Shown: piece by piece, positions 8,284-23,174 of the stretch
Position numbering within the stretch: the stretch's first letter is position 1
Layout: the number at the start of each line of letters is the position of its first letter
Virus record (IMG/VR): IMGVR_UViG_3300044621_000408
Location: 1 to 41,581 of that record
Strand: one strand, 5' to 3'
Source of the DNA: a virus
DNA length: 41,581 bases
Program-made: the position numbers and the translations under genes
Notes under the pieces: model-generated
Told to the model about the DNA's origin: nothing
Database searches by the model: none
What the model saw: only the letters and a program-made list of their open reading frames with translations

Positions 8284-10035
8284 ATGAAGACACTACAGGA
8301 AGACCTACGGGACTGGTTTAGCCCCACCCACCCCAAGGGTGGTTGGAAACGCATAAACTCAAAGGGCGAGGCAATAGGTCCATGCGCAAGGGAGCCTGGA
8401 GAGCCAAAGCCAAAGTGCATGTCGAATGCCAAGAGGGCTAGCCTGACCAAGAATCAGAGGGCTTCTGCCGTCCGCACCAAGAGGAAGCACGATCCGAATC
8501 CAGAGAGGAAAGGACAGCCCATCATGGTCTCAAATTACGGCAAGGGAAAGATCAGCGAGGAGTATGAGATCGATGCAGCCAACGGACTGATTGAGTCCAT
8601 GGATCTCCTCCTAGAGAAGAACAAGCCGACAAGCCCCGACCTTTGGGCAGACTGCATCAGACAGGCTAAGGCAAAGTTCGATGTGTATCCATGTGTTCCT
8701 TTGGATTCCATGGCTGTGACTCGATTTGGTCCTGCCTATAGAGATGAACTCAAGGTTGGTGATGAGATTCTCACATACAACATCGAAAAGGATAGGTTGG
8801 AATGGAAGCCTATCCTCAATCTTCACGATTTTGAAGATGCACCATTGGTTGAGATGAAGAAGCCTACTGGTTTCAAGATTCGTTGCACCCCAAACCACAA
8901 GTGGGTTGTACAATATGGCATAGATCGCGGTGAAAAGTTTGTGAAAACGGAACTTTTGGAAACACAAGAGATACTGGCTAGGAAGAACCACAAGAGAATA
9001 GTAACTTGTGCTGTCCTAGAAGATACTACTTCGTCGCAGCAACTATCCGAATGGTCTAAGAGAGATCTGTGGACGGAAAGGGTTTTGGGAATGAGCAAGG
9101 ATCAGCGTGAGGTGTTCCTTGCAAGCGCGATAGTCTATGATGGTCATGATCAGGGTGTCAGCACCAAGATCACAGGAAGACACACTCTAGGGTTTTCACA
9201 GAAGAACGAAGATCACTTCTGGTCTGCCATTCTGGCGGCTTACCTCAATGGGTATCATGTCTCATATAGAGATAAGAAGGCTGGCGATTCTGTCGGAATG
9301 AGGGGAGCGACTATCATCAGAAACAAGAAGCACCATTCTCTTCAAAATGTCAAGTTCACGCAAGTGGACAACGAAGCAGTTTGGTGTCCAGAGACAGAAA
9401 ACAATACATGGGTGATGATACAGAATGGGTTCATCACCATTACAGGAAACTCTGCCTATGCCAACGGATGGGCTGCCCAGTGCTACAAGCGCAAGGGCGG
9501 CAAGTGGAAGTCCGTCAACGAGGAGAAGAAGGTGTTCTCGGAGTTCCTGAACAAGGACTCCATCCTCCGTCAGATCAAGGAAGGCAAGACCAAGAAGGTC
9601 AACAAGCAGAAGTCCCGCGACTGGAAGGACGAGCAGTTCCTCAAGGGGCTTGAGTCAGGCAAGAAGATCTCCGAACTCCTTGGCGGCAGGAAGTTGACCA
9701 CAGCCGATGGCAAGCCCGTCCGCATGGGCAGGAAGGTCACGGAAGCCGTTGACAAGGAAAGCATGCCCTGCAACAAGCCAAGGGCTTCCACCAGTCCAGG
9801 GAAGAAGAAGATGGTGAAGGCATGCGAGGGTGGTCAGGAGAAGATCATCCACTACGGGGCTAAGGGATACGGTCACAACTATTCTCCTGCCGCAAGGAAG
9901 TCGTTCCGCGCCCGCCACTCCTGTGAAGAGAAGAAGACCAAGTTGGGTGCGCAGCATTGGGCTTGCAAAGACCTCTGGGCTGGCAAGGGTGGTTCCACGA
10001 AGTCCTGTCCTGAAGGCAGGAAGTGCAAGTATTGA
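8284..10035 (+). CDS. Cys-rich phage protein of unknown function, interrupted by an intein
   Basis: The reading frame encodes 583 residues, of which 253 are an intein (separate entry), leaving a 330-residue mature protein. The N-terminal part (GGWKRINSKGEAIGPC, AKRASLTKNQRASAVR) and C-terminal part (EKIIHYGAKGYGHNYS, RKSFRARHSCEEKKTK) recall small basic Cys-containing domains found as hypotheticals in phages and large viruses. The split motif is YP-SAYANGWAAQCYKRKGG, as in DUF5872-type proteins. The exact function is unknown. The ATG at 8284 is preferred because GAGGG lies about 9 nt upstream; an in-frame TTG at 8263 abuts the promoter-like motif. The gene lies at the front of the block separating gp47 from gp46. 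Confidence 0.75.
   Translation: MKTLQEDLRDWFSPTHPKGGWKRINSKGEAIGPCAREPGEPKPKCMSNAKRASLTKNQRASAVRTKRKHDPNPERKGQPIMVSNYGKGKISEEYEIDAANGLIESMDLLLEKNKPTSPDLWADCIRQAKAKFDVYPCVPLDSMAVTRFGPAYRDELKVGDEILTYNIEKDRLEWKPILNLHDFEDAPLVEMKKPTGFKIRCTPNHKWVVQYGIDRGEKFVKTELLETQEILARKNHKRIVTCAVLEDTTSSQQLSEWSKRDLWTERVLGMSKDQREVFLASAIVYDGHDQGVSTKITGRHTLGFSQKNEDHFWSAILAAYLNGYHVSYRDKKAGDSVGMRGATIIRNKKHHSLQNVKFTQVDNEAVWCPETENNTWVMIQNGFITITGNSAYANGWAAQCYKRKGGKWKSVNEEKKVFSEFLNKDSILRQIKEGKTKKVNKQKSRDWKDEQFLKGLESGKKISELLGGRKLTTADGKPVRMGRKVTEAVDKESMPCNKPRASTSPGKKKMVKACEGGQEKIIHYGAKGYGHNYSPAARKSFRARHSCEEKKTKLGAQHWACKDLWAGKGGSTKSCPEGRKCKY
8692..9450 (+). other. Intein in the Cys-rich protein (253 residues)
   Basis: The intein starts with Cys (CVPLDSMAVTRFG), followed by the block A/B signature LKVGDEILTYN and CTPNHKWVV (TxxH motif). 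It ends with ITITGN before extein Ser. Removing it joins FDVYP to SAYANG. The penultimate residue is Gly instead of the usual His, while the terminal Asn and the +1 Ser are present. The middle (FLASAIVYDG, then WSAILAAYLNGY) may be a degenerate LAGLIDADG-type endonuclease domain. Codons are more AT-ending here (for example GTT, TTT, GAT) than in the flanking extein, consistent with separate origin. Splicing activity is inferred, not shown. Confidence 0.88.
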
Positions 10036-21029: not shown

Positions 21030-23174
21030 GTGAACAAATACAGGATCATCGAAGGCGATTGCCGCGAGGGACTCAAGCAGATCGCGGACAACTCCGTCCA
21101 CACATGCATCACCTCACCCCCCTACTTCGGCTTGCGTTCGTACAACGGAGGTCAGAGTGAGATCGGATGCGAGAACGAAGTGCAGCAGTATGTCGATGCA
21201 ATGGTTGATGTGTTTCGTGAAGTTCGCCGTGCTCTTCGTCCTGATGGCACTCTGTGGCTGAACCTTGGCGACTCCTACATGGCTCAGTACAATGTCCCTC
21301 CTCCTCCACAGACAATCGGGGGACAGAGGGACATGCCAACCACCATTCCTGGAAACCGCAAGAAGCAGAAGGGTCTGAAGCACAAGGATCTGATCGGCAT
21401 CCCTTGGCGTGTAGCCTTTGCGCTACAGGCAGACGGGTGGTGGCTGCGTCAGGAATGCATCTGGTGTCTTAGTGGTGGAACCTGTGTTTATGTTCGCACC
21501 AAGAATAGCGGAGAGTGCGTGATGATGATTCGCGATCTCTACCGCCTTGATCCATCTACGGTACAACTTTGGAATGGAACCAGTTGGACGAATCTTCTTG
21601 GCATGAGCAAAAGTAAGAGGAGGGGGGATGAACTTGAAATAGTCCTTCGTTCGGGGGAACGCATCTCATGCACACCCACACACAAGTTTCCGACTAGTGA
21701 CGGCTTGAAGGACGCAAGTGAACTGGTAATCGGTGATACTCTTCTCTCATGTACACTACCACCACCCGAAAATCCGAGAGATTGCTTCATAGACGAGGAC
21801 GCGGCGTGGTTTGCTGGACTCTATCTCGCAGAAGGCTCCCGTAGCGGAGACACCATTCAGATATCTGGTCACTCAAAGGAAAACCACCGATGGTCGGAGA
21901 TTCAGAGGATAGCGAAGAAGTTTGGAGGAACTGCTACCATCTCGGTTGACGGAAACAACCAAGCCATCCGCGTCTATGGTAAGGTGCTCAACGCAATATT
22001 GGATGAGATGATCGTTGGAACCACCGCATACGACAAGGGTTTCAGTCCCGTGGTGTGGAGATACTCGAACAGATTCTTGGAACGAATGATGGATGGGTAT
22101 CTTTCTGGCGATGGATGCCAGACGGGCAATCGGTGGAGACTTGGGTTTTGTAGAAACTACAGGCTTGAGCAAAACATCAGAACTGCATGTGCTAGGTTGG
22201 GGTATACCCTCACGCTGAATCTCAGCCACGCCAGTTGTGGAGAAAAGTCGTTTCCTTCTTTCCGTGGAGAACTACGCAAGGAGAGAAGCGGTCATTGCAA
22301 CGAAAAGAGTCGAAATGAGATCGTGAAGATCAACAAAGCCCGCTGTAGGGAAGTCTACGATCTCGGTGTGGAGGACGAACCACATCTCTTTGCATTGGCA
22401 TCTGGTATATTGACGCACAACTCCAAGCCCAATCCCATGCCCGAGTCGGTCATGGATCGATGCACCCGAGCGCATGAATACATCTTCATGCTCACCAAGA
22501 AGTCGCACTACTACTATGACCATGAGGCAATCAAGGAGCAAGCCGTAGGCGCACCTCATGCGCCAGGAAACAAGAACAGGACTCAGCCCGAGGAAAAGGG
22601 ATCGCGTGATCCTGCCCTTGAGCCTGACAGGGTGTGGGCTTCCGATGGAAGGAAGAACAAGCGTTCCGTGTGGACGGTCAATACCAAGGGTTACAAGGGA
22701 GCGCACTTCGCGGTCTATCCCAAGAACCTCATCCTTCCATGCGTCCTTGCGGGAACCAGCGCACATGGCTGCTGCTCCAAGTGCGGTGCGCCTTGGGAGA
22801 TGGATGTCAATGTCGGCATGAGCGACTACGAGAAGCACGGGAAGCATTGGGGTGGGGATTTCGGCAGGAACGACTCCGTCCCACCCGAACGGATCTCGGG
22901 AAGGCAGACGCGGACTGCCAAGGGGACGGTTCCCTCCCTCAAGGCAGCGGAGAGGACACCCAAGGGGTGGAAGCCAACCTGCAAGTGCAAGGATGCCTCC
23001 GTGGTTCCATGCACCGTCCTGGATCCGTTCACGGGATCGGGTACGACTGCTGTCGTGGCAATGGAGAACGGACGGGACTTCGTGGGTTGCGAACTGAACC
23101 CTGAGTACATCAAGTTGGCTGAGGCAAGGATCGCTGAGGAGGTTCCAAGCGATCTAGACGACCTCATGGAATGA
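21030..23174 (+). CDS. DNA methyltransferase (N4-cytosine/N6-adenine type) with an intein
   Basis: The 714-residue frame contains a 319-residue intein; the spliced enzyme would have 395 residues. Catalytic TSPPY is at 28-32 and the SAM-binding DPFTGSGTT at 665-673, so the motif order is that of beta-class amino-methyltransferases; SPPY is more usual for N4-cytosine enzymes. Between them are WxKPNPMPESVMDR (split by the intein) and a Cys-rich zinc-ribbon-like part (CCSKCGAPW, then CKCKDASVVPC) that may take part in target recognition. No restriction endonuclease is adjacent, so it is an orphan, perhaps protecting phage DNA. The start is GTG with GAGGAG 8 nt upstream. Confidence 0.9.
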   Translation: MNKYRIIEGDCREGLKQIADNSVHTCITSPPYFGLRSYNGGQSEIGCENEVQQYVDAMVDVFREVRRALRPDGTLWLNLGDSYMAQYNVPPPPQTIGGQRDMPTTIPGNRKKQKGLKHKDLIGIPWRVAFALQADGWWLRQECIWCLSGGTCVYVRTKNSGECVMMIRDLYRLDPSTVQLWNGTSWTNLLGMSKSKRRGDELEIVLRSGERISCTPTHKFPTSDGLKDASELVIGDTLLSCTLPPPENPRDCFIDEDAAWFAGLYLAEGSRSGDTIQISGHSKENHRWSEIQRIAKKFGGTATISVDGNNQAIRVYGKVLNAILDEMIVGTTAYDKGFSPVVWRYSNRFLERMMDGYLSGDGCQTGNRWRLGFCRNYRLEQNIRTACARLGYTLTLNLSHASCGEKSFPSFRGELRKERSGHCNEKSRNEIVKINKARCREVYDLGVEDEPHLFALASGILTHNSKPNPMPESVMDRCTRAHEYIFMLTKKSHYYYDHEAIKEQAVGAPHAPGNKNRTQPEEKGSRDPALEPDRVWASDGRKNKRSVWTVNTKGYKGAHFAVYPKNLILPCVLAGTSAHGCCSKCGAPWEMDVNVGMSDYEKHGKHWGGDFGRNDSVPPERISGRQTRTAKGTVPSLKAAERTPKGWKPTCKCKDASVVPCTVLDPFTGSGTTAVVAMENGRDFVGCELNPEYIKLAEARIAEEVPSDLDDLME
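21465..22421 (+). other. Intein with LAGLIDADG endonuclease in the methyltransferase (319 residues)
   Basis: It begins with Cys (CLSGGTCVYVRT) and ends THN before extein Ser. Block B is CTPTHKF, preceded by a VQLWNGTSW segment typical of an intein family found in phage and bacterial enzymes. Two LAGLIDADG-like helices are visible, AWFAGLYLAEG and RMMDGYLSGDG, both with acidic catalytic residues, so the homing endonuclease may be active. The C-terminal block is VYDLGVEDEPHLFALASG. It is inserted in the conserved WxKPNPMPES motif of the methyltransferase. The DNA shows codon bias unlike the extein. Confidence 0.95.

Follow-up and report, generated by a model that had tools for sequence, protein, structure and literature searches.

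The subject here is a phage gene that is interrupted by an insert of 253 codons. The gene lies in a viral DNA fragment (IMG/VR record IMGVR_UViG_3300044621_000408; "the window" is the whole stretch of 41,581 nucleotides that was analysed). Judging from the neighbouring genes, which encode a head scaffold, major head proteins, a DNA helicase, a late sigma factor and a DNA polymerase, the window is a fragment of a T4-like phage, and SbcD- and SbcC-like nuclease subunit genes flank the intein gene, one on either side. The GC content is 45% in the intein versus 54 and 57% in the exteins. The features discussed below are located in Table 1.

Table 1 Features of the interrupted gene, in window positions.
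Feature	Positions	Strand	Basis
Intein-containing precursor gene	8284-10035	+	Open frame, ATG at 8284; 583 aa, predicted to splice to 330 aa
N-extein: PHROG 727-like domain and helix 1 of the SAYAN domain, ends ..KFDVYP	8284-8691	+	PHROG 727 E 7e-18; AlphaFold2 domain model
Intein, 253 aa, Cys1...Gly252-Asn253	8692-9450	+	Intein_splicing/TIGR01445 matches, homologues, alignment, AlphaFold2 model
Cys1, putative class 1 nucleophile, block A:1	8692-8694	+	Cys in 60/60 non-identical full-length relatives
Block B, T66-P-N-H69-K-W71; W71 belongs to the class 3 WCT triad	8887-8904	+	T66, H69 and W71 unchanged in all 30 inteins of the alignment
Middle domain, a single LAGLIDADG-like half spanning residues 121-224	9052-9363	+	Model fold; dN/dS 0.00-0.11; missing from 138-aa mini-inteins
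LAGLIDADG-like motif FLASAIVYDG with Asp150	9115-9144	+	Asp150 in 26/26 domain-keeping members of alignment A1
Cys232 at block F:4, member of the WCT triad	9385-9387	+	Invariant, 30/30 and 60/60; 21 residues ahead of the final Asn
Thr251-Gly252-Asn253, block G:5-7: triad Thr, penultimate Gly, putative cyclising Asn	9442-9450	+	TGN 59/60, TSN 1/60
C-extein, from +1 Ser of SAYANGW; its Cys-containing domain at the C-terminus has relatives in PHROG 7595 / PHROG 220	9451-10035	+	All 60 relatives have S, C or T at +1

The insert is an intein

An earlier note, made from the sequence alone, had placed an intein with a GN ending at YP|SAYAN, and its boundaries proved exact: the 253 codons run from C to GN with Ser at +1, and joining the flanks without positions 8692-9450 gives an in-frame gene of 331 codons, that is, the 330 residues predicted for the spliced protein and a stop. 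The locus combines an in-frame insert, a HINT splicing fold, a C-terminal Asn, a +1 residue of the Ser/Thr/Cys type and host homologues free of the insert. Chance is excluded as an explanation for the intein identity, which follows from domain-model matches, end-to-end homologues, the structure model and the uninterrupted homologue L012. Pfam Intein_splicing matched weakly (E 3e-4, under the curated cut-off) and TIGR01445 matched as well. Over its full length of 253 residues the insert aligned (identity about 31%, E about 4e-21) to DNA polymerase inteins of Stephanstirmvirinae phages, one of which, that of Escherichia phage PaulScherrer, carries an intein annotation. The AlphaFold2 model, built with 28 related sequences, had a mean pLDDT of 86, and its best matches among solved structures were inteins. 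The best VIA match was the class 3 intein AceL NrdHF (6zgq_B, Z 18.4, rmsd 2.1, 150/154 residues), and the endonuclease-bearing TliVMA gave Z 17.0 and an rmsd of 3.7-3.8 over 237-238 residues. When profile A1 was compared with the sequences of solved structures, the matches were confined to the N-terminal half of several inteins, and a profile search of bacterial and archaeal genomes recovered only five distant relatives.

Homologues that align through YPSAYAN and lack the intein, for which the earlier note had proposed a search, turned up in L012, the cultured Synechococcus phage S-BM3 and at least 120 contigs besides. The three-part protein recurs in L012, where the site reads KFDVYPSAYANGWAAQCYKRKGG, and both L012 and S-BM3 are continuous through KFDVYPSAYANGW.

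The closest known systems include the PaulScherrer/phi92 DNA polymerase inteins (~31% end to end), which share Cys1, TxxHxW, VWCP, the ITITGN end and one LAGLIDADG-like half; unlike our intein, they are 245 aa long, lie in a DNA polymerase and are followed by Cys at +1. In the PaulScherrer record MZ501100 (L092:1501-1503) the mat_peptide is shifted by one codon at both ends: it leaves out Cys1, starting at Val2, and runs on through the +1 Cys.

The host protein and its SAYA motif

The PHROG matches of the extein were 727 for its N-terminal and 220/7595 for its C-terminal part, and Pfam gave sub-threshold matches to DUF5872 and DUF5754 only. The S-BM3 protein annotated T4-GC_119 aligned over the N-terminal domain and the SAYA domain and differs in the C-terminal domain; by this alignment the extein is related to cyanophage T4-GC_119, a hypothetical protein of a cyanophage gene cassette (PMC3037559) that the S-B43 record labels a structural protein. 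The suggestion that the protein is vital for the phage found no backing, as the extein is pieced together from small domains, many of which exist elsewhere as stand-alone proteins of 50-90 aa, and lies at differing genome positions among phages. It was also called Cys-rich; Cys residues are present, but the enrichment is mild (10 Cys per 330 extein residues). The C-terminal extein domain (window 9748-10032, MPCNKPR...ARHSC...WACKDLWAGKGG) is present in hundreds of viral contigs, in many cases as a small protein by itself, and weakly resembles DUF5754. A mixed whole-extein alignment (A3), which broke up the SAYAN fragments, was set aside.

In a separate AlphaFold2 model the SAYAN domain (~48 aa) has two predicted helices, and the intein sits in the inter-helix loop just ahead of helix 2. 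This domain, which is weakly similar to DUF5872 of algal giant viruses, also occurs as many stand-alone proteins of 50-90 aa; a viral fold search with it recovered no known function. Earlier proposed as a putative active or binding site, YPSAYAN is strongly conserved and repeatedly targeted, with three insertion points. Sister inteins interrupt WPSAYA|SGALVKC (L301-L323 and L336-L341, e.g. L301, L304 and L341) and YPSAY|SNGWAL (L325), and the occupation of three positions of one motif makes it a recurrent target. In a 69-row tree, in which some long branches, the mini-inteins among them, are uncertain, the WPSAYA group was monophyletic (100/100) and fell within the YP|SAYAN inteins (95/91). 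The T4-GC_119-type protein of S-B43 has the WPSAYASGALV form at the same place, so that one protein family is targeted by two alleles whose sites lie 12 nt apart. The sister positions look as if the insertion point had shifted inside the SAYA motif. Further members of the lineage lie in other phage proteins, e.g. DNA polymerase, these other hosts being judged from a few flanking residues only.

Splicing residues and the starting nucleophile

In a 30-row alignment T66, H69, W71, C232, T251, G252 and N253 were invariant, and Cys1 was present in every row that includes the start. All 60 non-identical full-length relatives combine Cys1 with the Trp (B:12), Cys (F:4) and Thr (G:5) of the triad, and the invariance of Cys1 reached relatives at about 25-30% identity. 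Mini-inteins of 138 aa that lack the middle domain still keep the splicing residues. Natural mini-inteins occupy the same site in L111, L127 and L131 (138 aa) and in L108 (163 aa); they have no endonuclease half, and all have Cys1 and GN.

The hallmarks of class 3 inteins are a Trp at B:12, a Cys at F:4 and a Thr at G:5, together with the absence of a position-1 nucleophile (PMC5050341, PMC5222942, PMC7664689), which they do not need (PMC5222942). Our intein resembles the class 3 inteins MchDnaB1, MsmDnaB1 and AceL NrdHF in its HINT fold and in the positions and spacing of the Trp-Cys-Thr triad (W71, C232 and T251, spaced as in MchDnaB1; PMC7664689), and differs from them in its invariant Cys1, the position-1 nucleophile that marks class 1. 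Cys is the second most common residue at F:4 among inteins generally (PMC4031507), so it alone is no mark of class 3. An outright class 3 assignment was rejected, because the published definition excludes a position-1 nucleophile; as Cys1 is present and invariant, we filed the intein only as carrying a class 3 pocket. Because of that invariance we think it more likely that splicing begins as in class 1, the class 3-type pocket serving as an aid or a relay.

A different start, at Cys232 (F:4), with Cys1 as a dispensable relic, is a serious if doubtful possibility. Besides the completeness and invariance of the WCT triad, it could account for a spacing equal to that of MchDnaB1 (His65/Trp67/Cys124/Thr143/Asn145 versus His69/Trp71/Cys232/Thr251/Asn253, with 21 from Cys to Asn in both) and for the closest structural match, AceL NrdHF, being itself class 3. 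WCT inteins that retain a position-1 nucleophile were reportedly described by Tori and Perler in 2011, and this too counts for a start at Cys232, as does the fact that class 3 inteins require no nucleophile at position 1. However, invariance in 60 relatives is unexpected of a dispensable residue, and block A (C-V-P-x-D-S-x-A-x-T-x-x-G) reads as class 1.

The Gly-Asn ending had been regarded as a peculiarity that forces a variant last splicing step. We ran a degenerate DNA pattern, xN|(S/T/C)AYAN(G/A)W with His-Asn also permitted, on viral contigs; it matched 42 stretches with an intein at the same site, and the ending was GN|S in every one (42/42). Among the 60 non-identical full-length relatives the end was TGN in 59 and TSN in 1. 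Other inteins without a penultimate His splice well. The mycobacteriophage Bethlehem gp51 (RDF) intein, a phage intein with a penultimate Gly, splices completely, and changing this Gly to His (G316H) slows its splicing (PMC5050341), and AceL NrdHF, which lacks both helper His residues, splices within minutes (PMC7891396). As the ending is lineage-wide and has precedents by experiment, a novel last step need not be invoked, and on the sequences compared here GN is a character of the lineage. What is unusual is the start of the intein's chemistry, where Cys1 and the WCT triad come together. By its published description, to which our comparison is confined, the Bethlehem intein differs from ours in being described as class 1, and an endonuclease-inactive mutant was needed owing to toxicity (PMC5050341).

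The middle domain and mobility

In the AlphaFold2 model residues 121-224 fold as helix-strand-strand-helix-strand-strand. The domain holds a single LAGLIDADG-like motif, FLASAIVYDG, with the acidic residue before Gly that is characteristic of LAGLIDADG homing endonucleases; there is one half per chain, and the first half is absent. LAGLIDADG inteins usually carry two motifs, so the finding of only one makes nuclease activity uncertain. Pfam LAGLIDADG_3 (PF14528) matched 1/30 members, weakly (E 0.084). TliVMA and PI-SceI likewise combine HINT and LAGLIDADG-like domains, and 238 residues align with TliVMA, but that type has two LAGLIDADG halves where ours has one. Two LAGLIDADG-like motifs were read by eye in more distant relatives of phages KIL1, nieznany and GMA3, suggesting that the first half was probably lost in the intein at 8692-9450. 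The polymerase inteins of KIL1 (L257) and nieznany (L264), with their two motifs, possibly represent the ancestral two-half form.

Asp150 occurs in all 26 domain-bearing members of A1, the lone E belonging to a misaligned member without the domain. Middle-domain dN/dS was 0.00-0.11 in ten pairs, several with saturated dS, and comparable to that of the splicing domain. The impression of a degenerate endonuclease-like middle is thus not borne out for the retained half, which is under purifying selection, keeps Asp150 and belongs to recently transferred inteins, though the other half is indeed missing.

Intein DNA was 95% identical between L128 and L130, 94% between L110 and L125 and 98% between L094 and L126. 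At more than 24 nt from the insertion, extein identity on either side was 54-56% for L128/L130 and L110/L125; for L094/L126 it was 65% on the C side and 91% over a short 69 nt on the N side, so that the contrast holds on the C side only. The GC content of the intein was below that of the extein in 27 of the 29 loci compared. Since intein identity is high and extein identity low, these pairs point to recent transfer; near-identical inteins in diverged exteins fit recent homing, and the intein is apparently still mobile.

One possible objection is that the intein splices but its middle is no working nuclease and has another role, the element having spread by ordinary phage recombination between conserved flanks. 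The single LAGLIDADG-like motif and the persistence of same-site mini-inteins without the domain would agree with this, and a conserved target helps recombination. We consider it rather unlikely, however, because the catalytic-type Asp150 is kept in every domain-bearing member with dN/dS of 0.00-0.11, and because intein identities of 94-98%, set against extein identities of mostly 54-65% once the 24-nt target flanks are passed, fit homing. That the insert is decayed, neither splicing nor moving, with the 253 residues retained in the protein, might be read from the missing first LAGLIDADG half and the absent penultimate His, but is hardly credible given the open frame, the intact splicing residues, the strong purifying selection in both parts, the recent transfers and the 138-aa relatives that retain only the splicing residues.

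Proposed mechanism

We conclude that the insert is probably a splicing-competent mobile phage intein of a lineage specialised on the DNA of the conserved motif Y/W-P-S-A-Y-A. After translation of the precursor, the intein would fold as a HINT domain and excise itself: most likely Cys1 forms the first thioester, the N-extein is transferred to Ser+1, and Asn253 cyclises with no penultimate His helping. Cys232 with His69, Thr251 and Trp71 would form a class 3-type pocket beside this site and may assist or be a second acyl carrier. Ligation would restore the inter-helix loop VYP-SAYAN. The half-LAGLIDADG middle is proposed to act as a homodimer that cuts intein-free alleles, whose repair would then copy the intein in.

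The target DNA is mildly palindromic around GCNTAYGC, the centre of symmetry lying 7 nt inside the C-extein (p 0.02-0.045 versus column shuffles), which is a hint only, as the protein coding of the motif constrains the DNA. A more far-reaching proposal, which we put forward tentatively and with some doubt, is that of a distinct lineage specialised on Y/W-P-S-A-Y-A of virus proteins, in which either Cys1 or the class 3 Cys could act as the starting nucleophile, with a half-size LAGLIDADG homodimer homing on the near-palindromic GCNTAYGC, and whose insertion point shifted (before SAYA, after SAY, after SAYA) while Ser was kept at +1.

If splicing works as proposed, class 1 and class 3 starting cysteines share one active site, and single mutations could probe the origin of class 3 from class 1 without loss of activity, a step that has been considered implausible (PMC7664689). 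The family would also offer protein engineering compact GN-ending inteins with natural 138-aa forms, and the SAYAN motif becomes interesting as a phage domain struck at three neighbouring positions.

The same phage carries a second intein in the window, at 21465-22421 (gene 21030-23174). It has 319 aa and lies within a DNA methyltransferase at IW|SKPNPMPESV; with Cys1, VYDLGVEDEPHLFALASGILTHN|S and two LAGLIDADG-like motifs, it is of the canonical His-Asn type.
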